Below the pieces are notes generated by a model. The model searched no databases, was not told where the DNA came from, and saw only the letters and a list, made by a program, of their open reading frames with translations. 39,603 nt of DNA from Chloroflexota bacterium (GTDB taxonomy: Bacteria > Chloroflexota > Anaerolineae > Anaerolineales > Anaerolineaceae), in assembly GCA_012514645.1 (NCBI GenBank), contig JAAYZW010000027.1:1-39603 (forward strand). The letters are read 5' to 3'. Shown one piece after another: positions 2,363 through 32,006 of this stretch (position 1 is its first letter; each line of letters opens with the position of its first letter). The translations under genes and the position numbers were made by a program.

Positions 2363-3472
2363 CTATTCCTGGTACAACAAGTTTTGGTGAATCCAATCAA
2401 CTACGCTCTGGTCCCAACGGTAAACAAAGCTGGAGCCAAAGTTGGAGGGGATGTACTCCAGATCCTGCAAGAGCATTGATTCAGGAATTTGCGTTGATTT
2501 GTAGTTCTCCAGTTCGAAGTTCTGCAAGAAGCAGACACCCAGCGACGAAATCTGCTCAGGTGAAAGATCTGTCAAAAAGGCACCATGAAATTCAGACACA
2601 AGGTCAGGCACTTTGACGATATTTTCCGGTCTCAGAAATTTTTGGATAACTGCCTTTATGATCAACGACTGGTTCCCAACTCTAAAGCCATCGCCATAAT
2701 TCGTGCGAATACGCATCAAATCCAGTGCTCTTTCGCCGTCTAACACTTGTGTTCCGGAAGGGAAGTACCCGAGGCTTGGGTCTGGGTCATAGACCTCCTG
2801 TGGCAGGGTGACCTCTATGCCGCCGATGCCGTCAATAAAGTTACGGACGGCATTAAAGTTCACGACAACATAGTGATCGGGTGTGACCCCAAAGTTGTAC
2901 TGAAGCACCTGCGCCAGAGAATTCGCTCCAGTGCCGGTGTCGTTAGAGCCAATCCATCCCGGAGAACCCAGCAAATAACCCTGGTTAATCTTAATAGGGT
3001 TTTCTTCTTTAAAAAGCCCTGCAGGGGCATCCACCATCATATCGCGAGGCAGCGCCACCATATTAATAGTCATATTGGTGAAATCGACCCTCGCCAGGCG
3101 AATAACATCTGCCAAACCATAAAGGTAATCGTTTCCACGGTAATCAATGCCAACCAGCATGAAGGTCCAGACCGCATCGTCACCGCATATTGGCGCGGGC
3201 GTCGGTGTTGGGCTGGCTTCAGGGATGGTCGGGGTTGGCACGTCAGTCGGCACTTCGGTCGCAGTTGGCAGTATGTTCGTGGAGACACTGGGCAAGTTCA
3301 GTGGATCGGAAATTGGTTTTTGCCATAAGGGTTTCAGCCAGGTAAACCATACTGAAATAAGGATAAGAATCAGCCCCAGCGCAACCAGTGCGATGATTTG
3401 CCATCGTTTTTTTTGCTGGCTGGTGTCATAATTGCCATTAAGTTCGGTGTTTTCAGGTTGTGTATCGGTCAT
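2363..3472 (-). CDS. LytR-CpsA-Psr (LCP) family protein
   Basis: 369 residues. A cytoplasmic N-terminus and one membrane segment (about 26-48) are followed by a Thr/Pro-rich linker (about 65-95) and an extracellular LCP domain (about 100-330). Family hallmarks are visible: VGIDYRG, ADVIRLARVDF, ALPRDMMVDAP, VVVNFNAVRNFIDGIGGIEV, and the basic segment LMRIRTNYGD with the downstream Asn-Gln. LCP enzymes transfer lipid-linked glycopolymers to peptidoglycan or another surface acceptor. A second LCP gene lies upstream with a non-coding repeat between the two. The start has only a weak purine-rich Shine-Dalgarno, and a terminator-like hairpin lies just before it (3491-3510). LCP assignment is secure; the acceptor and polymer are unknown. 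Confidence 0.93.
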   Translation of the reverse strand: MTDTQPENTELNGNYDTSQQKKRWQIIALVALGLILILISVWFTWLKPLWQKPISDPLNLPSVSTNILPTATEVPTDVPTPTIPEASPTPTPAPICGDDAVWTFMLVGIDYRGNDYLYGLADVIRLARVDFTNMTINMVALPRDMMVDAPAGLFKEENPIKINQGYLLGSPGWIGSNDTGTGANSLAQVLQYNFGVTPDHYVVVNFNAVRNFIDGIGGIEVTLPQEVYDPDPSLGYFPSGTQVLDGERALDLMRIRTNYGDGFRVGNQSLIIKAVIQKFLRPENIVKVPDLVSEFHGAFLTDLSPEQISSLGVCFLQNFELENYKSTQIPESMLLQDLEYIPSNFGSSFVYRWDQSVVDWIHQNLLYQE

Positions 3473-3919: not shown

Positions 3920-4963
3920 CTACTGGTTCAAACCAAGGGCTTCCCGAACAAATTCAACCACTTCGCTGTGCGGAATCAGCACCTGCGCTCCGGTCTCAGT
4001 GGTGAAGGGGTGAAACATCGTGTCCGGGATGGCGGTGATATGAATATCGGCCCGTTTGATTTCCTTGGAAAGGCAATAAAAACTATACAAATCGGTTAAG
4101 CCAAGGTCCGATTGGGTGGTTTTGTCTTTCAGCAGAGTAGTCAGCACTTCATAAATCATTTTTGGCGAAATGCCAGTGCGCACCTTGTCGAGAATCGCCT
4201 CCATCACCAGTGTTTGGCGGTTGATACGCTGAATGTCTGTATCAAAAGCACGTATACGCATAAAAACTACTGCCGTATCACCATCCATTTCATAAGTGCC
4301 AGGCGGGAAGTTATACCAGTAATCCCGCGCAGCCTTTTCGGTAGTGACCGTGATACCGCCAATTGCATCGATATATTTCCCAATCTCATCGTAATAGAGA
4401 ACAAATTGCTCGTCAGGTTTAAAACCAAAATTATGTTCCAGGTTCTCTGCCACCCATTCTGCGCCATTACCGGGACCAAAAAACCATTCGCCATAGCCAA
4501 AGGTGGCGTTAATGCGTCCATAGTTGATGCCAAATTGCTCAAATCCCACAATGGGCACATAAAAATCACGCGGGACCGAGGTCATATGCATTGTCGCATT
4601 GTTGAAATCGATTTTAATCATACGGATGCCATCTGCCTGGGCATGTTTATCAATCCCCAACACCATCAGATATACCGTGTCGGTACGCCCACAATGTCCG
4701 CTTCCCTCAATGGTATCTTCAAGTGTGGCAACGGCACCGGTTGGCTGTAAAGCCACCGGCGTAAACTCTACCGGTGCCTCACCTACATTTTCAGGGAATT
4801 CAACCCCTTCAGGCATGACCGCGGTAGGCGGAACCTGAGCCGTGGGGGTGGTATTGACCGGTTCCAAAACCTGGGGAAAGTTGCAGGCATAAATGGAAAA
4901 AGCCAGAAATAACGCAAGGCTTATTGCGATAATTCTATGAATTTGATTTGCTGTTGATTTCAT
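3920..4963 (-). CDS. LytR-CpsA-Psr (LCP) family protein, possibly lipoprotein
   Basis: 347 residues. The N-terminus is a hydrophobic segment (about 10-27) ending in IYAC, which could be a lipobox with Cys27, followed by a Pro/Thr-rich linker to about residue 85. The LCP domain follows: VLGIDKHAQADGIRM, SVPRDFYVPI, LYYDEIGKYIDAIGG and VVFMRIRAFDTD with RINRQ. The start is supported by GGAGA seven bases upstream. It lies 101 bp after the NusG-paralogue gene, and that gap holds an ops-like sequence and a small hairpin. As with its neighbour, it probably attaches a lipid-linked polysaccharide to a cell-envelope acceptor. The lipobox is imperfect (Tyr at -2), so plain membrane anchoring is equally possible. 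Confidence 0.92.
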   Translation of the reverse strand: MKSTANQIHRIIAISLALFLAFSIYACNFPQVLEPVNTTPTAQVPPTAVMPEGVEFPENVGEAPVEFTPVALQPTGAVATLEDTIEGSGHCGRTDTVYLMVLGIDKHAQADGIRMIKIDFNNATMHMTSVPRDFYVPIVGFEQFGINYGRINATFGYGEWFFGPGNGAEWVAENLEHNFGFKPDEQFVLYYDEIGKYIDAIGGITVTTEKAARDYWYNFPPGTYEMDGDTAVVFMRIRAFDTDIQRINRQTLVMEAILDKVRTGISPKMIYEVLTTLLKDKTTQSDLGLTDLYSFYCLSKEIKRADIHITAIPDTMFHPFTTETGAQVLIPHSEVVEFVREALGLNQ

Positions 4964-4987
4964 CAGTCAATCTCCATGCTCGTGCCC

Positions 4988-5002
4988 AGCCACGCCTCCG
5001 CC
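4988..5002 (-). promoter_or_regulatory. ops-like element in the leader after the NusG paralogue
   Basis: The minus strand reads GGCGGAGGCGTGGCT. The E. coli RfaH recruitment element ops is GGCGGTAGCGTGCT, so the match is GGCGG-nn-GCGTG, 10 of the first 12 bases. It lies 62 bp downstream of the NusG/RfaH-like gene stop, just upstream of the first LCP gene. The stretch is GC-rich, so coincidence is possible, and Chloroflexota ops sites are not established. Confidence 0.35.
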
Positions 5003-5007
5003 CCTCC

Positions 5008-5022
5008 GACACGCCTGGTGTC
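5008..5022 (-). promoter_or_regulatory. Small hairpin beside the ops-like element
   Basis: GACAC-CAGGC-GTGTC on the minus strand makes a 5-bp stem with a 5-base loop, ahead of the LCP gene in the same leader as the ops-like sequence. Specialised NusG proteins of the LoaP type are known to use a leader hairpin. This one is a candidate by position only. Confidence 0.3.
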
Positions 5023-5064
5023 AGCTGGAGCAAGGTGTTCATTTGTTAGCCCCCATTCAACGCA

Positions 5065-5604
5065 TTAATAAGCGCGTCGCTTCAATTTACTCGCTTCTGT
5101 TTGCAGTCGAACCGTGCGACCCAATAAGCTTAGCAAAACAATAACCCGATCTTCACCATTTACGCACTGTTCAAAGCGTGCCTGGATTCCCCGAAGTGCC
5201 GGGTCGTCTATCCAAACCCTCTCGCCGCGTTTAAAAGAAGCAGGATCGCAATCGAGCTTGGCTTCTTCCTGCCTTACTTGTTTGCGAACAACTTCAATAA
5301 CTCCTTCTGGTATCGGAGCTGGCAAACCATCAAAATTCACCAGTCCAATAACGCCCCTTGTCAGACCAAGCTTCTGTTGATATAGATCTGCGAGGCTGCC
5401 CTGAACAAACAAATAACCAGGGAAAAACGGTTTTTGTGTTTTCGAACGGGGATTTACCGGTCTTACCCGCAATTTCGGGAAGTAGGTTTCGATATTCTTT
5501 TGTTGAAGTTGTGAATCGACAATGAATTCAAAATTCGGCTTGCACCGTAAAGCGTACCAAAGTGCATAGTCGCTAAATTCTTCATTATCCCAATAATTGT
5601 GCAT
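5065..5604 (-). CDS. Specialised NusG paralogue (RfaH/LoaP-like transcription antiterminator)
   Basis: 179 residues. A NusG N-terminal (NGN) domain covers about 14-115: the WYALRCKPNFE start, then FFPGYLFVQ, then RGVIGLV near the domain end. A KOW-type beta-barrel follows (about 120-175: FKRGERVWIDDPALRGIQA, VIVLLSLLGRTVRLQT). The protein is shorter and more diverged than housekeeping NusG and is not beside secE/rplK. It heads a block of polysaccharide genes, the usual setting of RfaH, LoaP and UpxY-type regulators. These bind RNA polymerase and suppress pausing and termination in long operons. The start ATG at 5602-5604 follows AGGGTGA. Family assignment is firm; the antitermination role is inferred from context. 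Confidence 0.88.
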   Translation of the reverse strand: MHNYWDNEEFSDYALWYALRCKPNFEFIVDSQLQQKNIETYFPKLRVRPVNPRSKTQKPFFPGYLFVQGSLADLYQQKLGLTRGVIGLVNFDGLPAPIPEGVIEVVRKQVRQEEAKLDCDPASFKRGERVWIDDPALRGIQARFEQCVNGEDRVIVLLSLLGRTVRLQTEASKLKRRAY

Positions 5605-5671
5605 GCATCACCCTACAACCCTGTGTATGTTCACTGTTTTAACCGGACAGTTTATAAATATAACCCTCCAT

Positions 5672-5677
5672 ATTATA
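5672..5677 (-). promoter_or_regulatory. Candidate -10 box for the NusG-paralogue operon
   Basis: A perfect TATAAT on the minus strand lies 68 bp upstream of the NusG-paralogue start, in the divergent gap with the patatin gene. No convincing -35 is found at 16-18 bp. Between it and the gene, ACTG/CAGT (around 5627-5651) forms a weak dyad. Evidence is the hexamer and position only. Confidence 0.35.
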
Positions 5678-5762
5678 CAATCAAATTCCAAAATCGATTT
5701 TTTACAAAAAACAACGATAGTAATAACTCCCTGATATGATATGTATTATTAACGAGGTGAAC

Positions 5763-6656
5763 ATGTCGAGAGAAATTAATTTGGCATTAGGTGGAGGGGG
5801 CGTTAGAGGAATCGCGCATCTGGGTGTTGTTCAGTGCCTCATGGACAATGGCTATAAAATTAATGGGATTGCCGGCACCAGTGCTGGCGGTCTCTTTGGC
5901 GCGATCATCGCTGCTGGTCATCAGCCTGCCGATATCGCTAAAGTGGTTAACAAATTTTTTGGCGATGGCGGTTTTCGGTCAGGTGTCGGTCAGCAAAATT
6001 TCTCCCTGCTAGGCACCTCCGGGCTAATCAATGCCCTGGGACCTTTCCTGAAAGACAAACAAATTGCAGATTTGCCCATTCCTTTTGTGGTGACTGCGGT
6101 CAGCCTGAAAACTGGTCAAGAGATCATCCTGCGGGATGGCGATGTAATGCAGGCTGTGCTTTCCACCATTGCGATTCCCGGTATCTTTCCCAGCCAGGGC
6201 GATGAAATCCTGGTTGACGGTGGCATTATGGATCCCGTTCCGGTAGATTCAGCCCGTGCATTCGATACCAGCCTGCCAGTCGTCGCAATTTTGCTCCATA
6301 GACGACCTGCCGGTTTCGACCTGGTAGACGTCAAGGTACCGCTGCAAGACAGCGTACCAGATCCAATCATAAAAACCATAGCAAAAACCCGCCTGGGTGA
6401 GCTCATGCGTCATCTTACCGTCACGATTGATGTGGTTAGCAACAAATTGAGTGATCTGCGCATTGAGCTGTCACAACCAGATGTGCTCGTTGAGCCGGAA
6501 GTCGGACATTTCAGCTTGCTGCAAAAGGTTGAATCAAAACCATTAATTGATGAAGGATATCGAGCGATGGAAGCCAGCCTTGAAGACCTCGATAAAGCCT
6601 TTTCACTGATCAGTTCATTTAAGCGGATTACTAAGTACGGGCGTGCGCGAGATTGA
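5763..6656 (+). CDS. Patatin-like phospholipase family protein
   Basis: 297 residues from the ATG at 5763, which is chosen because GAGGTG lies 3 bases upstream; an earlier in-frame ATG at 5736 lacks such a site. Patatin hallmarks are all present: the oxyanion loop GGGGVRG (residues 10-16), the nucleophile elbow GTSAG with Ser40, and the catalytic Asp in DGG (Asp152). The active-site Ser/Asp dyad is therefore intact, predicting lipid acyl hydrolase activity. There is no signal peptide, so it probably acts in the cytoplasm or at the inner membrane face, like the RssA/YlbK group. It is transcribed away from the polysaccharide block and converges with the SH3b gene six bases beyond its stop. Confidence 0.92.
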   Translation: MSREINLALGGGGVRGIAHLGVVQCLMDNGYKINGIAGTSAGGLFGAIIAAGHQPADIAKVVNKFFGDGGFRSGVGQQNFSLLGTSGLINALGPFLKDKQIADLPIPFVVTAVSLKTGQEIILRDGDVMQAVLSTIAIPGIFPSQGDEILVDGGIMDPVPVDSARAFDTSLPVVAILLHRRPAGFDLVDVKVPLQDSVPDPIIKTIAKTRLGELMRHLTVTIDVVSNKLSDLRIELSQPDVLVEPEVGHFSLLQKVESKPLIDEGYRAMEASLEDLDKAFSLISSFKRITKYGRARD

Positions 6657-6662
6657 GAAAGC

Positions 6663-7289
6663 TCAACCACGCCTTAAGACGGCGATGAGCGTCAGAAACA
6701 ACCCCAATCCCGCCAAAATCACGATTACATACCCAATCGGAATACCAACCGTCGTGCTGCCGATGACCTCAGCAGGGTAAGTTGGGATCTGAATGGGCGG
6801 CGGTTCGGTAAAGGTCGGCAAACGGCTGGGAATCGCCGTGATGATAAATTGGGCTGCCAGGGTTGGGTCAATTGTTTTTGTGATCGAAGGTGTTTCTGTG
6901 GGCGGAGGCTGAAGCATCGGCAGCGACCCACCAAAGACTTCCACTCGGTTCAACACGATCCAACCGCGATTATTTGGTGCGCCGGCATAGTCGATTTGAA
7001 CATAGTCGCCATAATAACCATAGGCATTGGCTTCCTGGCCCACCAGGAATACACCAACACGAGTTGATGTTGAGTTCGGGTAGGCGCGCACATTCAATGG
7101 ATTCTCAGGGTCACCAACCGCCCGGACGTACAACCCACGTGGCAAGGCTGTGACAGTCGGGATCGAGACAGTCGGAAACTGTGCCCACACTGCACGGTTC
7201 AGATTGGGCAGCAGGCTCAATAACAGCATGACTGCCAATATTCCCAAGCCGGTCGCAAAGCGAATTTTTTCTTTTTTACCTTGTTTCAT
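6663..7289 (-). CDS. SH3b-domain membrane protein
   Basis: 208 residues. The start is placed at 7287-7289, preceded by AAGGTG, because the frame upstream of it overlaps the divergent zinc-ribbon gene and has no family resemblance. An N-terminal signal or anchor (about 10-35) leads to a bacterial SH3 domain (about 50-118: LYVRAVGDPENPLNVRAYP, VGVFLVGQEANAYGYYGDYV, GWIVLNRVEV). A Pro/Thr-rich linker (125-175) and a C-terminal membrane segment (about 180-203) follow. Such extracellular SH3b domains often bind peptidoglycan or other envelope polymers. The function here is unknown. Two membrane anchors around one SH3b domain imply a loop displayed outside the cell. Confidence 0.8.
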   Translation of the reverse strand: MKQGKKEKIRFATGLGILAVMLLLSLLPNLNRAVWAQFPTVSIPTVTALPRGLYVRAVGDPENPLNVRAYPNSTSTRVGVFLVGQEANAYGYYGDYVQIDYAGAPNNRGWIVLNRVEVFGGSLPMLQPPPTETPSITKTIDPTLAAQFIITAIPSRLPTFTEPPPIQIPTYPAEVIGSTTVGIPIGYVIVILAGLGLFLTLIAVLRRG

Positions 7290-7307
7290 CAGCACCTTAG
7301 CATTCAG

Positions 7308-7315
7308 ATTATAAT
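7308..7315. promoter_or_regulatory. Shared palindromic -10 region of a divergent promoter
   Basis: ATTATAAT reads as TATAAT on both strands (7310-7315 on plus, 7308-7313 on minus), midway in the 54-bp gap between the divergent SH3b and zinc-ribbon genes. Predicted start sites on both sides leave leaders of roughly 10-25 bases. If both are used, RNA polymerase could serve only one gene at a time. Confidence 0.4.
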
Positions 7316-7343
7316 CTAAACTATTACTGAAAGAATACGACAA

Positions 7344-7931
7344 ATGAGCACTCGAATTTATCACGGCAACATCAATCCCAGGCAGATCGCAAACAATCTT
7401 AGCGCTGCATTCCACCGCGGTAACTTCCAGGTGCAGCAAGTGGGTGATCATGAAAACCTTGCGGTCCAGATCGCCACGCGACCCAACCGCCGCTCTGGCG
7501 GTCAAACAGCCATGACCGCTACCATTTCGAAGGTCGCTGATGGCGTAAGTATCACGGTTGGGCAGCAGAGTTGGCTCGGTCTCGCAGCCAGCCTCGGCAT
7601 CTCGGCACTGAGCGCGTTGCGTAACCCGCTTTCGATTCTCAGCCGGCTGGATGACATTGCTCAGGATGTCGAATCGATCACGCTTGAAGATCAAATCTGG
7701 GATGTGATCGATAAAACCGCCCGGCAGCTCGGCACCGGTCAAAACCTTTCCGAGCGGCTTGCACGCACAGTCTGCCCCTACTGCCTGACAGCCAACGAAA
7801 TTGCAGCAGGGCGCTGCGTTGCCTGCGGTGCCCCACTCGGTGAAGTTCAACCTGCTACATGTTCGAATTGCGGATTTGTGGTTCAAAAAGATGAGCGTGT
7901 TTGTCCGAACTGCAGTTTCCGCTTAAAGTAA
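7344..7931 (+). CDS. Zinc-ribbon protein of unknown function
   Basis: 195 residues. The N-terminal two-thirds has no motif I recognise. It begins with a short amphipathic region and has a hydrophobic patch near residues 75-90 (WLGLAASLGISALSAL). The C-terminus holds two Cys-Cys knuckle pairs forming double zinc ribbons: CPYC with CVAC (about 143-162) and CSNC with CPNC (about 173-192). It ends with the typical FRLK of terminal zinc-ribbon proteins. It is divergent from the SH3b gene with a shared -10 region. Whether the ribbon binds nucleic acid or protein cannot be decided. Confidence 0.8.
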   Translation: MSTRIYHGNINPRQIANNLSAAFHRGNFQVQQVGDHENLAVQIATRPNRRSGGQTAMTATISKVADGVSITVGQQSWLGLAASLGISALSALRNPLSILSRLDDIAQDVESITLEDQIWDVIDKTARQLGTGQNLSERLARTVCPYCLTANEIAAGRCVACGAPLGEVQPATCSNCGFVVQKDERVCPNCSFRLK

Positions 7932-7963
7932 GCTGTCCCGTTATTTTATAATTTTGTGGGGAA

Positions 7964-8263
7964 TTTAATATCAGAATCATTGCTGATACGACCTGCTGTC
8001 TACCGGTACATCAGATGAAAAAGCTTGGAATCGATTTCCTCCCACAAATCATCACTTTTGAAGGCAACTCCTATCGGGAGGATTAATTGATTAGCATCGA
8101 TGAGTTTCTGGTGAAGCTGAGAACCTCAGCGCAACTGCCCGGCACAGCAGCGCCTCTCCCTGTCCTCTATAACCCCATTTTTCAGAAAATTCTCGATGAA
8201 GGCGATACCGCCATCGTCGTACACACCGGTCCAGCGTTGGTTGTGACCAGCTGTTTTTCATAA
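7964..8263 (+). pseudogene. degV-family relic (N-terminal third, in-frame stop)
   Basis: Translation from about 7970 reads IRIIADTTCCLPVHQMKKLG, then FLPQIITFEGNSYRED, a TAA stop at 8084-8086, then LISIDEFLVKLRTSAQLPGT, and ILDEGDTAIVVHTGPAL, ending at TAA 8261-8263. This follows the N-terminal order of DegV fatty-acid-binding proteins (D-T/S-T at the start, SYRDG, SxxEFxxxL, LPxTSxPSP, GDxVLxI). There is no ATG, one internal stop, and the remaining two-thirds of a roughly 280-residue family is missing. It is a decayed gene rather than a functional short protein. No degV motifs were found in the following 186 bp. Confidence 0.75.
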
Positions 8264-8449
8264 CCAGAATAAACTTGTTTCGGGTTTCAATACAAAGTGA
8301 TTTTTCCGGTGGGGGTTAACTCCCTCCGCCAAACTCGTTATGCCAACGCTCGAGCGATTGCCTTTCAACCTTCGTGACGCCAGCAGTACCATTTGCAAGG
8401 CAAAACCCATTCGTGCCAGACTCCCCTATCAACAGCAGCGTTCCGAAAG
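8264..8449. other. Non-coding stretch between degV relic and radC
   Basis: No gene is recognised. The only structure is an 8-bp stem with two G-T pairs and a 7-base loop at 8308-8330, without a T-run on either side. Probably decayed remainder of the degV locus. Confidence 0.4.
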
Positions 8450-9154
8450 TTAAGCCCAAAGGTCAGGGTGGTTGCGCCTGATCGAGCCATAGCTGTTACC
8501 AGCGACAATAATGTGGTCGATCAAACGAATATCAAGAATCTTGCCCGCCTCAATAACTACGCGGGTCAGGTTAACATCTTCCGGGCTCTCAGTCGGGTTC
8601 CCACTGGGATGGTTGTGGATCAGGACAATTGCATAAACATTCTTCCTGACCGCATCCTTATAGATCTCTGCGACGCGCACGGTGGTGGCATCCTGAGAGC
8701 CCTTATACAGGCGTTCTTTTCCCAGAAATTTGTTGCGTGAGTTCAAAAACAAAACCCAAAGCTGCTCCTGGTTAAGCCCTTTCATCTCGAAACCAACCAG
8801 GTTAAATATGTCTTCGGGAGTTTTAATAAAAATAGATGGGTCTTGCGTTTCCTTCGAAAGGCGGTAACCGACCTCCACCGCTGCTTTAATCCGAGCTGCC
8901 TTCGCCAGTCCAACCCCTTTAAACTCCATCAGGCGCGAGATGTCTTCGCGGTGAATGCCGCTGAATCCTCCAAGCTCAGTAAGCAGCTTGTTACCAAGGT
9001 CAATCGCGCTGTCTTCCTTGGTGCCGCTATTTAACAGGATCGCCAGCAGCTCACCATTCGTCAACGCTCCCACACCCTCAGTCAACATTCTCTCCCTCGG
9101 GCGGTCAGATAAAGCCAAATCTTCAATCCTAATTGTTTTCTTTTCGTTATCCAC
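8450..9154 (-). CDS. radC: RadC family protein (JAMM/MPN domain)
   Basis: 234 residues, the usual RadC length. An N-terminal helix-hairpin-helix region (about 20-90, including LMEFKGVGLAKAARIKAA) precedes the MPN domain (about 110-232). The metal-binding JAMM signature is intact: HNHPSGNPTESPED with the downstream Asp, and the conserved Glu is further upstream in the domain. RadC was once assigned to DNA repair, but its biochemical role is unsettled. JAMM enzymes elsewhere are metallo-isopeptidases. The gene is divergent from the large RsbW/PP2C gene with 55 bp between starts. Confidence 0.95.
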   Translation of the reverse strand: MDNEKKTIRIEDLALSDRPRERMLTEGVGALTNGELLAILLNSGTKEDSAIDLGNKLLTELGGFSGIHREDISRLMEFKGVGLAKAARIKAAVEVGYRLSKETQDPSIFIKTPEDIFNLVGFEMKGLNQEQLWVLFLNSRNKFLGKERLYKGSQDATTVRVAEIYKDAVRKNVYAIVLIHNHPSGNPTESPEDVNLTRVVIEAGKILDIRLIDHIIVAGNSYGSIRRNHPDLWA

Positions 9155-22988: not shown

Positions 22989-24104
22989 ATGTTTGTGGAG
23001 GTTGAGAAGTCAACTGACGGTATAATCTACCCTGATATGAGCGAAGAACTGATTGTCGCCCTGCACATGCATACCCGTTATTCGGATGGCGCCGGCTTGC
23101 ACAAAGACCTCGCGGAAGCCGGGTTGGACGCGGGAGTGGACGTATTGCTGGTCACAGACCACAATGTGCTCGTCCAGGGTGTGGGTGGCTATCACCAGCG
23201 CGGAAAGCGACGCTTGCTTATGCTCGTCGGCGAAGAGGTTCACGACACCACGCTGTCGGGCGGCGGTTCGCACATGCTCCTTTTTGGGCACAACCAGGGG
23301 CTCTCACGCTACGCGGCAGAACCGCAAAGATTGATCGACCAGGCAAACGCTGCCGGCACCCTCAGTTTTATCGCCCATCCTGTTGAAGACCCCTTGCCCG
23401 CCTTTAATGAAGGTGAATTTAGCTGGAGAGATTGGTCGGTCAAAGGTTACACCGGCATCGAACTGTGGAACCAGATGAGCGAGTTTAAGACGCGCTCTCA
23501 TTCTCTGCCCAAAGCGGCACTGCACGCCCTATTCCCCCAGTTTATGAGCCAGGGACCATTGGAACGCACCCTGCAACTTTGGGACCGATTGCTGCTTTCC
23601 AGCAAACAACCCGTGGTTGCGGTTGCCGGTGTGGATGCCCACAATACACAATATAAATATGGACCGCTGAAGATCAGGGTTTACCCCTATGCTTTCCAGT
23701 TCCGTTCTTTCTCGACTCACATTTTGACCCCCAGCAAACTGACTGGCGAGATTAACACCGACCGAAAGATGATTCTGGATGCCCTGCGGCTCGGACATGC
23801 CTTTTGCGCCTATGACCTCCCGCACCCCACCCGGGGCTTTCGGTTTACCTGTAACACCAATGACGGCACTTTCATGATGGGCGACCAGGTGCAGGTTGAT
23901 GCCGGGCTGACTTTCCAGGTGCGCCTGCCGATTCGAACACACGTTCGCCTACTCAAAGATGGCGTGGTGGTGAAGGAACACCATGACCGCGAAGTTTTGA
24001 CATATTTGACCAAAGAGCCAGGCATCTACCGCGCAGAAGTTTATATCGACTACCTCAACCGCCACCGCGGCTGGATTTTTAGCAACCCGATTTACGCGAT
24101 TTGA
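22989..24104 (+). CDS. PHP domain metal-dependent phosphoesterase-like protein
   Basis: 371 residues from ATG 22989; the ATG at 23037 (just before SEELIVALHMHT) is a credible alternative, as the first 16 residues look non-conserved. PHP motifs are clear: LHMHTRYSDG, VTDHNVL, a Glu in LMLVGEEVH, SFIAHPVED, and AVAGVDAHNTQ, giving the expected His/Asp/Glu metal cluster. The C-terminal part (about 285-371) is a beta-rich domain of the kind found after PHP in secreted or CehA-type phosphoesterases, although no signal peptide is seen. The substrate is not predictable. It precedes the FHA genes by 122 bp. Confidence 0.87.
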   Translation: MFVEVEKSTDGIIYPDMSEELIVALHMHTRYSDGAGLHKDLAEAGLDAGVDVLLVTDHNVLVQGVGGYHQRGKRRLLMLVGEEVHDTTLSGGGSHMLLFGHNQGLSRYAAEPQRLIDQANAAGTLSFIAHPVEDPLPAFNEGEFSWRDWSVKGYTGIELWNQMSEFKTRSHSLPKAALHALFPQFMSQGPLERTLQLWDRLLLSSKQPVVAVAGVDAHNTQYKYGPLKIRVYPYAFQFRSFSTHILTPSKLTGEINTDRKMILDALRLGHAFCAYDLPHPTRGFRFTCNTNDGTFMMGDQVQVDAGLTFQVRLPIRTHVRLLKDGVVVKEHHDREVLTYLTKEPGIYRAEVYIDYLNRHRGWIFSNPIYAI

Positions 24105-24205
24105 CCACATCACTCCAGGTCACCCATAAAAAAGGATGCCTCCGCAAATTTCCCGCAATTGGTGTGGACGCTGTTGCGACCATCTCGGGTTCCATAGTTC
24201 AAAGG

Positions 24206-24211
24206 TATAAT
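24206..24211 (+). promoter_or_regulatory. Candidate -10 box before the FhaA-like gene
   Basis: A perfect TATAAT lies 15 bp before the preferred ATG at 24227, so transcription from it would give a leader only a few bases long. TTGCGA at 24174-24179 is 26 bp away, too far for a standard -35. Weak evidence. Confidence 0.3.
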
Positions 24212-24226
24212 TCCAGCGAGGCAATC

Positions 24227-24994
24227 ATGCGAAAGCTTTTGCAAAGTATCGAAAATAAACTGCGCTTCCTCCTGGAAGAGAAGCTGGACAGGCTAATCTT
24301 TCCAGGTGTTTCCAGCTCGCTCAGTTACACCCTGATCCAACTGATCGAGGATGAAATTGAGAATCAAGACGGCCGCTGCGAAGAATGTATGCCCGATTTA
24401 ATCACACTTAAGGTCTCTCCCGAGCGCTGGGATGCCTGGCAGGAATCCCTGCCGCTCCTCGACGAAGTCTCAACCGTGCTGGAAGAATCCTGGAAAGAGC
24501 AGGGCTACACGGTGAAAAACACGCCAATCATCCAATTGGTGCAATCGCCCGACCTGACCAGCAATCACATTTCAGTCGAGATTGACTACTCATTGGAAGA
24601 GAGCACCAATCGCCAAACCGCGCTCCAAAAGATAACACGCGAACCAATCGAACAAACCCTGCCCCAGGACGCCTGCCTGATCATCAGCGACCAGGATCCG
24701 TTTTATCTGACCAAAGCGATCATCAACATCGGTCGCCGTTCCAGCAATGACCTGGTGCTTAACGACCCCCTGGTTTCGCGTGATCACCTGCAGCTTCGTG
24801 CCGATGGCGGACGGTTTTACCTGTTCGATCTAAGCTCCAAGGCTGGCACCACCATCAATAACTTCCCTGCCAATAATGTCGCCCTCAAGCCCGGTGATGT
24901 CATCAAGGTCGGCAACACCAGCTTGATCTACAACCAGTGGGTCGACCAGGCAGTCTCGAAACCTACCCGCAGCATTTTTGAAGGCGCAAAATGA
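24227..24994 (+). CDS. FhaA-like protein (DUF3662 + FHA domain)
   Basis: 255 residues from ATG 24227, chosen because GCGAGG lies 5 bases upstream and the family starts there (MRKLLQSIENKLRFLLEEKL); the frame is open further 5' but unlike the family. The N-terminal FhaA domain covers about 1-125. A linker leads to an FHA domain (about 160-245) with its phosphothreonine-binding residues: IGRRSSNDLVL, SRDH, and the Asn of TTINN. FHA domains bind phosphothreonine on Ser/Thr kinase targets. In actinobacteria FhaA works in cell-wall synthesis. It overlaps the FhaB-like gene by 4 bp (ATGA). Confidence 0.9.
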   Translation: MRKLLQSIENKLRFLLEEKLDRLIFPGVSSSLSYTLIQLIEDEIENQDGRCEECMPDLITLKVSPERWDAWQESLPLLDEVSTVLEESWKEQGYTVKNTPIIQLVQSPDLTSNHISVEIDYSLEESTNRQTALQKITREPIEQTLPQDACLIISDQDPFYLTKAIINIGRRSSNDLVLNDPLVSRDHLQLRADGGRFYLFDLSSKAGTTINNFPANNVALKPGDVIKVGNTSLIYNQWVDQAVSKPTRSIFEGAK

Positions 24995-25422
24995 ACGCGG
25001 TTACCGGTCTGGTTTTGCGTGTGCTCTTGTTCATTAGCCTGTATGCCTTCCTGGCTGTTGCTCTCTGGCTGTTCTGGAAAAGCCTGACCGGCACCAGGCT
25101 GCGCGGCGGCACGATCGCAATTCCTACCCTGACACTGGCAACCACCATCGACGAAGAACAGGTAATCCAGACCTTCACCAGCTCTGATGTGGTGGTCGGG
25201 CGCAATCCGGATTGTGACCTTATTTTGGTTGACGAGACTGTCTCTGGCAGGCACGGTCGCCTGACTTACAACCTCAACCAATGGTGGTATGAGGACCTGA
25301 AATCGACCAATGGCTCCTGGCTGGATGATCTGAAAATCGAGGAGCCGATCGTCGTAAAAGATAACGATTCGATCTACTGCGGCGACGCAGTTTTCAAAGT
25401 TTATATCAAACCACTCAAGTAA
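24991..25422 (+). CDS. FhaB/FipA-like membrane FHA protein
   Basis: 143 residues. One membrane segment at about 5-27 is followed by a cytoplasmic FHA domain (about 60-140) with VVGRNPDCDLIL, SGRH, and STNGSWLDD, so the phosphothreonine-binding Arg, Ser, His and Asn are all present. This is the FhaB architecture of actinobacterial pstP-rodA-pbpA-pknB loci. No kinase or PP2C gene is adjacent here. The start overlaps the FhaA-like stop (ATGA), and the MTA phosphorylase starts 16 bp downstream. Confidence 0.9.
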   Translation: MNAVTGLVLRVLLFISLYAFLAVALWLFWKSLTGTRLRGGTIAIPTLTLATTIDEEQVIQTFTSSDVVVGRNPDCDLILVDETVSGRHGRLTYNLNQWWYEDLKSTNGSWLDDLKIEEPIVVKDNDSIYCGDAVFKVYIKPLK

Positions 25423-25438: not shown

Positions 25439-26314
25439 ATGTCGGAATATGCATTTGGAATCATCGGTGGTTCCGGACTTTACGGATTTGAAGGATTTGA
25501 AAATATCGAAACACTGGAGCTGGACACGCCTTTCGGCAAACCCTCCTCTCCGATCGTGACCGGAGAAATCCATGGCAAGAAGCTGGCATTCCTTGCCAGG
25601 CACGGCATTGGACATGTCTACTCACCAACAGAGGTCAACTATCGGGCAAACATATGGGCTTTAAAAGCGCTCGGCATTGATAAGATCGTCAGTGTCAGCG
25701 CTGTCGGCTCGCTGCGCGAAGATTATGCCCCTGGCGACATCATCGTCCCAGATCAGTTGTTCGATAACACCAAGGACCGCGAACGCAGCTTCTTTGGCAA
25801 GGGTTTGGTGGTGCACATCAGCTCCGCGTACCCCTTCTGCCCTTCTTTAAGCAAGCAATTATTAAGAGCGCTTGAAGGTGAAGACACCAATGTTCATGAA
25901 GGCGGCACCTTTGTCACCATTGAAGGTCCCCGTTTTTCGACTCGCGGTGAATCCAACGTCTTCCGACAGCTGGGCTTTTCACTGGTCGGAATGACCGCCA
26001 GTCCTGAAGCCTTCCTGGCACGCGAAGCCGAAATCCATTATGCCACCATGGCTCACGTGACCGATTATGACAGCTGGCACGAGACCGAAGAAGCAGTGAC
26101 AGTCGAAATGGTGGTCAACACGCTCAAGAAAAACACCCAGATTGCCCAGAACGCCCTGGTTAAATTGGTGGATATTATCGCTGCTGATGAAACTCACGCA
26201 CGTGATTGTGGCTGCGATGAAGCTCTGAGATACGCCTTCATCACGAACCCTGATTTCATGGACCCAGCCATGAAAAACAAGTTGTCGCTGCTGACAGGGA
26301 AATACCTGGGATAA
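25439..26314 (+). CDS. mtnP: S-methyl-5'-thioadenosine phosphorylase
   Basis: 291 residues, standard for MTAP. The phosphate-binding GIIGGSGLY opens the protein, RHGIGHVYSPTEVNYRANIW is the second conserved block, and SVSAVGSLREDYAPGDIIVP and EGPRFSTRGES are present. It cleaves methylthioadenosine with phosphate to adenine and methylthioribose-1-phosphate, salvaging by-products of polyamine or SAM chemistry. It lies between the FHA pair and the RodA-PBP fusion in one tight plus-strand run, where its metabolism has no obvious link to its neighbours. A purine nucleoside phosphorylase of the same superfamily is at 38271-39107. Confidence 0.95.
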   Translation: MSEYAFGIIGGSGLYGFEGFENIETLELDTPFGKPSSPIVTGEIHGKKLAFLARHGIGHVYSPTEVNYRANIWALKALGIDKIVSVSAVGSLREDYAPGDIIVPDQLFDNTKDRERSFFGKGLVVHISSAYPFCPSLSKQLLRALEGEDTNVHEGGTFVTIEGPRFSTRGESNVFRQLGFSLVGMTASPEAFLAREAEIHYATMAHVTDYDSWHETEEAVTVEMVVNTLKKNTQIAQNALVKLVDIIAADETHARDCGCDEALRYAFITNPDFMDPAMKNKLSLLTGKYLG

Positions 26315-26315
26315 T

Positions 26316-28922
26316 TTGAGCACTTCAGCACGAAAACAGACCCGGTCGCATCCCCCGATGCTGCTTATGGTCTCGATCACACTATTTTTCTATGCCTCTG
26401 CCCTGGCACTTGCCAGTGGAACCCGAACGCATAGCGAAACACTGTTGATCAGTGCTGAATTTTTTGTGCCATTCTTAGCTTGGCTGCTCGGTACGGTGCT
26501 GATTCAACGCAGTATCAACCGCCGGCTGCCAAATCGCGACCCCTGGATCTTCCCGGTCACATCCGCGTTGACCGGTTTTGGCATGCTGACCATTTGGCGG
26601 ATCTCGCCTGATTTGGGGCTTAAGCAAAGCGCCTGGTTCCTGGTCGGGACCGCCTTATTTTTGGCTGGTCTTTGCGCCAGAGACCTGATTAAGATCCTTA
26701 AGACTTACAAATATGTCTGGCTTTTGCTCGGGCTGATCCTGATCGGTCTCACCTTTGTCGTTGGGGTAAACCCCGCAGGCAGCGGTCAGCGCTTATGGCT
26801 GCGGGTTTTTGACATCTACATACAGCCTTCCGAACCACTGAAATTGCTGTTAATCATTTACCTGGCAGCCTTCTTTGCCGACCAATTGCGCCCGAATATC
26901 AATTGGATTAGTTCCGTTTTCCCGACACTGGTTGTCGTGGTGTTTGCCGGTCTGCTGCTTATCGCCCAGCGTGACCTGGGAACAGCCAGTCTTTTTATCA
27001 GCCTCTACATCCTGATGCTCACGGTGACAACCCAAAGGCGCCGACTGCTGTGGATCATCCCCGCGCTGGCGCTTGTGGCTGGAACAATTGGCTACTTCGC
27101 TTTCGATGTGGTTAAGACTCGTGTTGATATCTGGTTGAACCCCTGGCTGGATACAAGCGGCAACGCCTGGCAGCTGGCACAAGCTCAGATTGCCATTGCT
27201 ACGGGCGGGCTGACCGGTACAGGACCTGGTTTGGGAAGCCCGCAGTTCGTACCCATCGCCGTATCTGACTTTATCTTCACATCCATCGGCGAAGAACTGG
27301 GGTTGTTCGGCACGATTGCGGTCATGCTGATGCTCCTTATCCTGGTTTTTCGCGGGGTTAACATCGCTCTGTCGAGTAAAACCGTTTTCGGTCGTTACCT
27401 GGCTTTCGGCATTTCAGCTTACTTTGCGCTTCAATCGACTTTCATCATCGGCGGTAATCTTGGCTTATTACCACTAACGGGCGTGACCCTGCCCTTCCTT
27501 TCCTATGGCGGCTCTTCGTTGGTTACGAATATGCTGGCAGTGATGTTATTATTGCGCGTCAGTACCGAAACCAGCGCAAAAGACCTGCTAAACAAGGTGA
27601 GGCTGCCTTACCAGTGGGCTGCCAGAATTTTCGCCGGACTTTTCATTATCATCGCCGTCTGGAATGGCTACCTGGCGTTCCCGAATCAACAAACACTGGA
27701 AGCCCGGGCAGAGAACCCTCGTTGGGCGGTTTACGACCGCTATTCGCCTCGAGGAGAAATCTATGCCCTCTCTGGCGAAAAATTGGTTGAGGTTCAGGGC
27801 GAGCCAGGCAGTTATCAATTAAGGGTGAACCATCCGGAACTTTCCAACACTCTCGGCTACGCGCACCCAGCTTACGGACAAAGTGGGCTGCAAAGTTCAC
27901 AATATGACCTTTTGCGCGGTTATGCGGGCGTATCTTTCGAAGATCGCTGGGAGCACGAGCTGCTCTACAACCAGCCACCCCCCGGGCTTGATCTCAAGCT
28001 CAATATCAACCTGGCTCTTCAAAAAAGAGCTGACGAATTACTTAACGGTCAAACCGGGGCTATCGTGCTCTTAAACGCGCAAACTGCTGAAATTTACGCG
28101 ATAGCGTCTCATCCCAACTTTGATACCAACCGTCTTTCAGAAACCTGGGATAGCCTCATGCAGCGTTCAGATGCCCCGCTGCTCAACCGCGCTACCCAGG
28201 GTATTTACCCACTCGGCACGCTGGCAAACTCGGTCGCGTCTACCAGTCTGCTGGAAAGCAACCACGCGCTTGACCGCGCCTCTCCGGAAGACCTTGTTGC
28301 CCTTGACCCCTACTGCTACCGCGCGATGCAGAGCGCCGGTAAGTTGAACGGGTTTCAGCTTGGCTGTGAAAGTGTTTCCAAACAAATTTTGAACCTGACC
28401 AATCCGACCTTGCTGCAAGCCGACCTCGAGGCTCTCGGTTTGTTCTCGGCACCAGACCTGGCTATTCAAACCTCCCAACCCGCACCGCTCTTGTCTGCCG
28501 CGCAATTAGACGAGAACCCCCTGCTGGTGATGGATATCAATGTCAGCCCGATGCAGATGGCGCTGGTAGCGGCAACCTACACAAATGACGGACGCCGAGC
28601 CGCCCCTGCCCTGGTAAATTCTTACTTTACACCAGAAGGCACCTGGCAAGCGTTTGGACCGCGCGGCGCGGCAGTTGATGCTATTTCGCCGGAACTCGCT
28701 GAAGAAACCCGCCTGGCTTTGGCGTCTGACAGTCAGACAATCTGGTACCAGGTCGGTCACGCCCTGATCAACCAAACCGAGCCACTTACCTGGTATATCG
28801 GTGGTACCACACCCGAATGGTCTGCCACTCCACTGGCAATTGCCATCGCCATCGAGGCAGACAACCCTGACCTGGCGCTGACAATCGGAAGAACGCTTTT
28901 AAATTTATCGGTTTCAAATTGA
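26316..28922 (+). CDS. RodA/FtsW glycosyltransferase fused to a PBP-like domain with lost active site
   Basis: 868 residues from TTG 26316, two bases after the MTAP stop; an ATG at 26358 is the alternative. Residues 1-430 are a SEDS polymerase with about ten membrane spans: QPSEP from 170, WLDTSG with the catalytic-position Asp279, IATGGLTGTG, DFIFTSIGEELGL, and LPFLSYGGSSL. An extra span (about 435-455) leads to an extracellular PBPA/PBP2-like part: a pedestal with YSPRGEIYA, then a transpeptidase fold with LNAQTAEIYAIASHP and LLNRATQGIYPLG. At the SxxK site GSTFK is replaced by GTLAN (Thr635, Asn638), and no SxN or KTG box is seen. SEDS proteins polymerise glycan strands of peptidoglycan and are activated by a partner PBP. 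Here the partner is covalently joined and probably cannot cross-link. Confidence 0.93.
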   Translation: MSTSARKQTRSHPPMLLMVSITLFFYASALALASGTRTHSETLLISAEFFVPFLAWLLGTVLIQRSINRRLPNRDPWIFPVTSALTGFGMLTIWRISPDLGLKQSAWFLVGTALFLAGLCARDLIKILKTYKYVWLLLGLILIGLTFVVGVNPAGSGQRLWLRVFDIYIQPSEPLKLLLIIYLAAFFADQLRPNINWISSVFPTLVVVVFAGLLLIAQRDLGTASLFISLYILMLTVTTQRRRLLWIIPALALVAGTIGYFAFDVVKTRVDIWLNPWLDTSGNAWQLAQAQIAIATGGLTGTGPGLGSPQFVPIAVSDFIFTSIGEELGLFGTIAVMLMLLILVFRGVNIALSSKTVFGRYLAFGISAYFALQSTFIIGGNLGLLPLTGVTLPFLSYGGSSLVTNMLAVMLLLRVSTETSAKDLLNKVRLPYQWAARIFAGLFIIIAVWNGYLAFPNQQTLEARAENPRWAVYDRYSPRGEIYALSGEKLVEVQGEPGSYQLRVNHPELSNTLGYAHPAYGQSGLQSSQYDLLRGYAGVSFEDRWEHELLYNQPPPGLDLKLNINLALQKRADELLNGQTGAIVLLNAQTAEIYAIASHPNFDTNRLSETWDSLMQRSDAPLLNRATQGIYPLGTLANSVASTSLLESNHALDRASPEDLVALDPYCYRAMQSAGKLNGFQLGCESVSKQILNLTNPTLLQADLEALGLFSAPDLAIQTSQPAPLLSAAQLDENPLLVMDINVSPMQMALVAATYTNDGRRAAPALVNSYFTPEGTWQAFGPRGAAVDAISPELAEETRLALASDSQTIWYQVGHALINQTEPLTWYIGGTTPEWSATPLAIAIAIEADNPDLALTIGRTLLNLSVSN

Positions 28923-30827: not shown

Positions 30828-32006
30828 CTAAAGGATTTCCTCGTCGTTCCCTTCTTCGGGGTCTTCGGTGAGGGATTCATCATCAATCTCAAGGGGTTCC
30901 TCTTCCTCCAACTCGGAGACCTCCTGCTCAACCCACTCTTCAGATTCCCCTACCAGGTTGTCCAACACCCAATCCTCCTCATCCTCGAGCAGGATACTTT
31001 CTTCATCAAAAACATCCTCGTCATCGTCGATCAGTGGTTCAATTTCATCCGCCACTCCCAATTCATCCGGCAGCCCAGGCTCGATTTCTTCACTTAAAAA
31101 TCCGATCTCAACGACCTCGCTCTCTGCAGAGGCAGCTTCGAACAAAACCTGATCCTCTTCAGCCAGGGCAAGTTTTCGCTCGCGTTCAGCCAGTTCCTTA
31201 CTCTCCAGCTTTTTAGACCAAACGGTGTGACGCAAGATCAAAACAATCAGGGCAAGCACACCGACCACTAACATGGCAGTCTGATTCACGTTGATGCCGT
31301 TTACAGGCGACGGATCCAATCGCAAAAACTCGAGGAAGAAGCGCACGGTCGAGTACCAGATCAAATAGCCGAACAGAATATCGCCACGGTAAAGCTTGTC
31401 TTTGTACTTACGATCAACCCACAATAAAATCCCCGCGCCAATCAGGTTCAGAATACTTTCATACAAGAAGAGGGGGTGATATTTTTCGACATGTTCAAAG
31501 CCTGAGATACGGAATTGTGGATCAATCGAGATCGCCCAGGGTAAATCGGTTGGTCGACCGTAAACTTCCTGGTTGATAAAATTGCCCCAGCGACCAATCG
31601 CCTGACCAATCAGAAGTCCGGGAGCGATAAAATCTGCCCATTCCCAGAAGTTGATCTTTTTAATCTTGCTGTAGATGATCAAAGCCAATATTCCGCCAAT
31701 GACCGCACCGGGGATGCCCAAACCGCCATTCCACATTTTCAGGATCTCAACCGGGTTTCTCAGATAGTTTTCTGTGGTGACCCCCTGGGCGATGTTGGAG
31801 GCTGAAGGGGTGAAAACATGCCAGAGGCGCGCGCCAATGATCCCCCCAATTAACAACCAGGGCAACAAATCAAGGACAATCTCGGGGTCATCCCCGTGTT
31901 TTTTTGCTTGCCTGGCTGCCAGCCAGGCACCCACAATTGCCCCAAAAATGATTAAAATGGCATAAAAACGTATAGTTAACGGACCGATATTAAAACCTTG
32001 TGGCAT
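30828..32006 (-). CDS. lgt: Prolipoprotein diacylglyceryl transferase with long acidic C-terminal tail
   Basis: 392 residues, over 100 longer than usual. Residues 1-270 are a typical Lgt: seven or so membrane spans, IRFYAILIIFGAIVGAWLA, WNGGLGIPGAVIGG, the signature GRWGNFINQEVYGR with its essential Arg, YESILNLIGAG, and a final R-x-D-P segment. It transfers diacylglycerol from phosphatidylglycerol to the Cys of prolipoproteins. The tail (about 275-392) is first a charged helix (KKLESKELAERERKLALAEE) and then extremely rich in Glu and Asp with few basic residues. It is probably cytoplasmic and disordered. AAAGGA precedes the start. The next gene upstream is the CDP-alcohol phosphatidyltransferase, 27 bp away. 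Confidence 0.94.
   Translation of the reverse strand: MPQGFNIGPLTIRFYAILIIFGAIVGAWLAARQAKKHGDDPEIVLDLLPWLLIGGIIGARLWHVFTPSASNIAQGVTTENYLRNPVEILKMWNGGLGIPGAVIGGILALIIYSKIKKINFWEWADFIAPGLLIGQAIGRWGNFINQEVYGRPTDLPWAISIDPQFRISGFEHVEKYHPLFLYESILNLIGAGILLWVDRKYKDKLYRGDILFGYLIWYSTVRFFLEFLRLDPSPVNGINVNQTAMLVVGVLALIVLILRHTVWSKKLESKELAERERKLALAEEDQVLFEAASAESEVVEIGFLSEEIEPGLPDELGVADEIEPLIDDDEDVFDEESILLEDEEDWVLDNLVGESEEWVEQEVSELEEEEPLEIDDESLTEDPEEGNDEEIL

Follow-up and report, generated by a model that had tools for sequence, protein, structure and literature searches.

SEDS polymerases depend on class B penicillin-binding proteins (PBPs), and the activating and cross-linking roles of these partners have been separated with engineered mutants. 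In actinobacteria such as Mycobacterium tuberculosis, the genes are ordered fhaA-fhaB-(pstP)-rodA-pbpA-pknA/B. The membrane helix of PBP2 stimulates RodA (PMC10449877), and PBP2 variants activate RodA and raise its activity (PMC6207328). Natural single-ORF SEDS-PBP fusions are noted in PMC10449877, whose reference 18 is the Rhodococcus sp. RHA1 genome. The activity of Bacillus subtilis PBP2B is dispensable and PBP3 compensates, according to PMC9426605.

The window analysed here (the whole stretch of 39,603 nucleotides) is contig 238 of a draft genome of 2.03 Mb in 252 contigs. The locus contains the following genes and domains:

24101..24994 (+): FhaA-like protein with an FHA domain, upstream neighbour (Pfam, FhaA_N just under the cut-off; conserved synteny)
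24991..25422 (+): FhaB-like FHA protein, upstream neighbour (Pfam, synteny)
25439..26314 (+): nucleoside phosphorylase (MTAP-like), immediately upstream of the fusion (PF01048; same place in many relatives)
26316..28922 (+): RodA::pseudo-PbpA fusion, 868 aa, TTG start (open frame; full-length homologues in the genus)
26316..27590 (+): SEDS/RodA half, residues 1-425 (PF01098, solved matches, model helices)
27591..27677 (+): membrane helix of the PBP part, residues 426-454, a few residues past the last SEDS helix (model)
27678..27995 (+): pedestal/anchor domain, about residues 455-560 (weak PF21922, invariant residues, dN/dS, conservation)
28038..28910 (+): pseudo-transpeptidase domain, about residues 575-865 (partial PF00905; PbpA structural match)

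The ORF reading of the window showed that 26316-28922 (+) is a single open frame of 868 codons. Its TTG start follows directly on the stop codon of the phosphorylase, and the same position holds TTG or GTG in several relatives. The frame encodes a SEDS protein followed by a class B PBP, which makes it a natural SEDS-PBP fusion. PF01098 matched residues 102-420 of the SEDS half (E 2e-71, 241.3 bits against a cut-off of 26.4), and the best solved matches of this half were FtsW and RodA. The matches in the other half were weaker. PF00905 gave a partial match (28.5 bits, cut-off 22.1), and PF21922 (PBP_dimer_2) matched the pedestal at 479-550 with 20.7 bits, under the cut-off of 27; the pedestal region is covered by both profile and structure alignments. 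The first-pass annotation had suggested a structure prediction of the PBP half, which was run here on the full fusion (AlphaFold2, 53 homologues as input). The full-length model was confident (pLDDT 90.1, pTM 0.83). It begins with two extra N-terminal helices (15-37 and 47-70) and a ten-helix SEDS core, followed by a further membrane helix (426-454), the pedestal and a complete transpeptidase fold. The SEDS half of the model aligned with FtsW (8p1u_A) at Z 36.8 over residues 66-422. For the PBP half, the closest structure was PbpA of M. tuberculosis (Z 41.0, rmsd 2.6 over 364 aligned residues). The frame, the Pfam matches and the model thus agree with the earlier description of one frame with a SEDS half, an extra membrane span and a PbpA-like half.

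Two aspartates of the SEDS half were considered as the catalytic residue:

27150..27152 (+): Asp279, named in the first-pass annotation, not the catalytic Asp (absent from the invariant columns)
27267..27269 (+): Asp318, predicted SEDS catalytic Asp in SDFIF (aligned to E. coli RodA Asp262; invariant in 53 homologues)

Asp262 of E. coli RodA has been shown to be catalytic (PMC10449877, PMC6207328). The HTD motif that holds RodA Asp262 (HTDFIF) and FtsW Asp297 aligns with SDFIF of the fusion, so the catalytic residue of the fusion is predicted to be Asp318. The earlier assignment of this role to Asp279 was rejected on the E. coli RodA alignment and on conservation among the 53 homologues. Residues E173, K176, D220, R269, P313 and D318 were invariant among the 53 fusions and align with E114, K117, D159, R210, P257 and D262 of E. 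coli RodA. The predicted polymerase site of the RodA half therefore looks intact.

The transpeptidase motifs of the PBP half were replaced as follows:

28218..28229 (+): former SxxK, now Thr635-Leu-Ala-Asn638 (TLAN) (alignments)
28362..28370 (+): former SxN, now Gly683-Cys684-Glu685 (GCE), with Cys684 and Cys667 both kept (alignments)
28749..28757 (+): former KTG, now Gln812-Val813-Gly814 (QVG) (alignments)

Profile alignment to M. tuberculosis PbpA placed TLAN on STFK, GCE on SCN and QVG on KTG. The anchor LLNRATQGIYP was retained at residues 622-632, while GTLAN (634-638) and VGHALINQ (from 813) sit at the positions of GSTFK and KTGTAE in PbpA. It had been proposed that the anchor was kept, that GSTFK had become GTLAN and that the KTGTAE region had changed, and the alignments bear this out. 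The SxN motif, which the proposal did not mention, is lost too. An intact SxxK elsewhere in the pocket appears unlikely, since TLAN lies exactly on STFK in the profile alignment and the helix begins at residue 634 in the model, as it should.

A search for related fusions, with tabulation of the three motifs, had also been suggested earlier. Each of the 28 further genomes searched within the genus had a homologue, and the motifs were absent from all 27 same-genus sequences that include the motif region. Among 183 distinct homologues, the set of SxxK, SxN and KTG was complete in 36 (called active) and incomplete in 147 (called dead). The full set was present in 0/147 of the dead clade and in 36/36 of the active group, from elsewhere in Chloroflexota; the latter was defined by SxxK and KTG, and SxN turned out to be kept throughout. 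Among the 147, only L168 kept KTG and only L138 had a Lys at the SxxK position. All Anaerolineales homologues whose PBP part could be read were dead; Anaerolinea thermolimosa IMO-1 and Ornatilinea apprima P3M-1 are among the named carriers. At the same locus in other Chloroflexota, rodA and pbpA are separate genes with intact motifs. The same-genus and Anaerolineales results rule out a degenerate copy in a single genome, and the tabulation over 183 homologues sustains the earlier view of a conserved pseudo-transpeptidase. These sequences show the catalytic residues lost throughout the clade, whereas the pedestal, the fold as predicted and purifying selection persist. We consider it likely that this RodA, the third SEDS protein of the genome, is kept active by a dead PbpA-derived partner and that cross-linking takes place elsewhere, with phosphorylation control suggested.

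Within the class Anaerolineae, four states of the pair were found: separate and active, separate and dead, fused and dead, and partial. The partial state is that of L168 (G066, 4628-5767 (-)), a close sister of the active L167, which has lost the SxxK-SxN segment and kept KTGTA. A short Glu-rich repeat-like stretch (GEELEELGAVGELEEIGELRELEGIGELGELKG) stands in place of the segment. L168 is possibly a recent catalytic loss, or else an assembly quirk. Outside the class, L189 (G337, 5656-8556 (-)) is a fused RodA-PbpA of 967 aa with SxxK, SxN and KTG intact, an independent and apparently active natural fusion.

The cysteine near the former SxN was well kept. Cys684 was present in 94 of the 96 dead sequences that retain the segment, and a second nearby Cys in 92/96; among active homologues the SxN-segment Cys occurred in only 18/36. 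PbpA of M. tuberculosis has a disulphide at the place of the Cys667/Cys684 pair, and this pair may be a structural staple. These residues raise the question of an unorthodox transpeptidase, in which other residues such as Thr635 or the Cys667/Cys684 pair carry out catalysis. The Thr found at the Ser position in 63/147 sequences and the retention of Cys684 where the segment survives are compatible with it. However, there is no conserved Lys at SxxK or KTG, the nucleophile position is highly variable, the Cys segment is missing altogether in many families, and the Cys pair also occurs near SxN in some active homologues. We regard such catalysis as extremely improbable.

The RodA trees required a minimum of 2-3 changes for activity and 6 for fusion, although weak support for some deep branches and a long outgroup make the exact counts uncertain. 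Regain of three motifs is implausible, which argues for few losses (one large clade, L168 and L187) and for repeated fusions. Activity needed fewer changes than fusion and unfused dead partners exist; probably, then, catalysis was lost first and the genes fused afterwards, on several occasions. Fusion as the cause of catalytic loss was ruled out by the unfused dead partners and by the fused, active L189. The first-pass annotation had taken covalent tethering as the key step. The sequences and trees did not support this: there are separate dead genes, the dead state needs fewer changes than the fused state, L189 is fused yet intact, and fusion arose repeatedly.

The dN/dS among close relatives was 0.04–0.09 for RodA, 0.02–0.08 for the pedestal and 0.06–0.16 for the pseudo-transpeptidase, which places the dead domain under purifying selection (about 0.1). 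The identity of dead and active sequences was compared at matched RodA identity (about 43%). The pedestal (36% dead, 35% active) and the transpeptidase anchor (46% and 43%) were similar, whereas the SxxK helix (23% against 63%) and the C-terminal sheet (25% against 43%) had diverged in the dead sequences. Constraint is gone from the catalytic face and persists on the pedestal and anchor, through which an action on RodA would be expected. Both dN/dS and the matched comparison support the earlier idea of a retained regulatory domain, the constrained part being the pedestal and anchor that would activate RodA. Since constraint on the pseudo-transpeptidase extends past the pedestal, this domain may do more than activate RodA. 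A relic under relaxed selection would be a functionless, decaying PBP half, retained only through its joining to or co-transcription with RodA. The catalytic part does evolve faster than the rest, and L168 resembles a recent loss beside its active sister, but the dead partner persists over many families, split and fused, with low dN/dS, a confident fold and a pedestal conserved as in active homologues. This makes a relic very unlikely.

The stretch from SxxK to KTG was reduced in many families from 198–235 residues to about 178 or 122, and about 60–100 residues of this region have been lost outright in many families. This bears on regulatory sensing, in which the former active-site face would bind a stem peptide, nascent glycan or another PBP and report to RodA. 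Retention of the whole fold, the dN/dS of about 0.1 in the transpeptidase part and the Cys pair in 92/96 dead sequences with the segment would fit a sensor. The SxxK helix and the KTG sheet face, however, are strongly diverged, and outright losses of this size are unexpected for one conserved binding site. We consider a sensing role possible and, on balance, unlikely, and we retain the reading of a dead partner that keeps RodA active.

In the window, and in most relatives, dead or active, whose contig extends far enough, fhaA and fhaB lie beside rodA-pbpA. Both dead and active lineages repeatedly show the gene order FhaA, FhaB, MTAP-like phosphorylase, RodA, PbpA, and many Chloroflexota have the phosphorylase gene between the FHA genes and rodA. 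No pstP, pknA or pknB was recognised among the annotated neighbours in the window. The fusion RodA is the third SEDS of the genome and lies within this FHA-linked cluster. A separate MreD-linked RodA-PBP2 (MrdA) pair with intact motifs is present in the same genome, which makes the earlier label of 'elongasome' doubtful for the fusion. SVFK and KTGTAE are intact in the other class B PBPs found there, namely the mreD-linked MrdA and a MecA_N-type PBP. Three SEDS genes were present in nearly every genome, with the partner dead or alive, so the third synthase outlasted the inactivation of its partner, being neither lost nor replaced. Two adjacent LytR-CpsA-Psr-like enzymes (2363-3472 (-) and 3920-4963 (-), translations judged by eye) are also encoded in the window. 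Lgt (prolipoprotein diacylglyceryl transferase, 30828-32006 (-)) has a long, very acidic C-terminal tail; in loci of the genus, Asp and Glu make up about 20–45% of the last 130 residues, and most other loci checked have no such tail.

A MecA-type PBP was found in 40/42 dead genomes and in 14/33 active genomes on the tree (p 6e-7). Only about three phylogenetically independent contrasts were available and these showed no trend, so this raw association is a lead and we do not claim a link with the dead partner. No MecA-type PBP was found in two of the dead genomes. An ftsI-like PBP was not found in the draft genome of the window (G000, compared with G001-G022), probably owing to assembly incompleteness. 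Many genomes of the same genus have an ftsI-like PBP a few kb from ftsW.

The retention of a dead partner by the whole clade suggests that the polymerase needs the partner for something other than cross-linking. We infer that dependence of the polymerase on the dead partner accounts for the retention of this partner. Through its pedestal and membrane helix, the partner would activate RodA and position it for lipid II polymerisation, by analogy with the class B PBPs of other SEDS proteins. Cross-linking of the glycan strands would take place in trans, with the orphan MecA/PBP5-like class B PBP and the class A PBP of the same genome among the candidates. Beta-lactams would not be expected to acylate the fusion synthase. 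The neighbouring FHA genes point to phosphorylation as a means of control, a parallel to the actinobacterial fhaA-fhaB-rodA-pbpA operon.

The open-licence literature searched yielded no report of a class B PBP partner that is catalytically dead by nature and throughout a clade; most subscription papers lie outside it, so this absence is weak evidence. We lean towards the view that a clade of Anaerolineae has, among the three SEDS synthases of the cell, one with an obligate pseudo-transpeptidase, indifferent to beta-lactams and lacking a cross-linker of its own, in which loss came first and fusions later. If true, this would be natural genetic evidence that what SEDS proteins require from class B PBPs is allosteric and not catalytic. 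The two roles seem to have been split long ago in a bacterial lineage, which kept the pedestal and lost catalysis. The fusions provide single-chain proteins in which activation could be tested without transpeptidation, and the sister species with L167 (active) and L168 (dead) offer a chance to watch the change. The proposal also predicts a peptidoglycan synthase that is not directly hit by beta-lactams.

The locus resembles the actinobacterial RodA-PbpA system in its upstream FhaA- and FhaB-like genes and in the match of its PBP half to PbpA. It differs from that system in that rodA and pbpA are fused, a nucleoside phosphorylase precedes rodA and all transpeptidase motifs are lost, whereas the motifs of M. 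tuberculosis PbpA are intact and its beta-lactam acyl-enzymes have been solved. The fusion shares with E. coli RodA-PBP2 and other SEDS-class B PBP pairs the SEDS active-site residues, the membrane helix, the predicted pedestal and the transpeptidase fold. E. coli PBP2 is catalytic, whereas the PBP half of the fusion is dead by sequence and the genome has a separate mreD-linked RodA-PBP2 pair. Natural SEDS-PBP fusions and synthetic RodA-PBP2 fusions likewise have a SEDS protein and then a class B PBP in one chain, and fusion is compatible with function. The synthetic fusions contain a working PBP that binds bocillin, unlike the PBP part here, which is predicted to be catalytically dead. In B. 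subtilis, PBP2B is a class B PBP that is needed non-catalytically, and a MecA-type PBP, PBP3, is available in trans. Native PBP2B is active, whereas the loss described here is natural and clade-wide.
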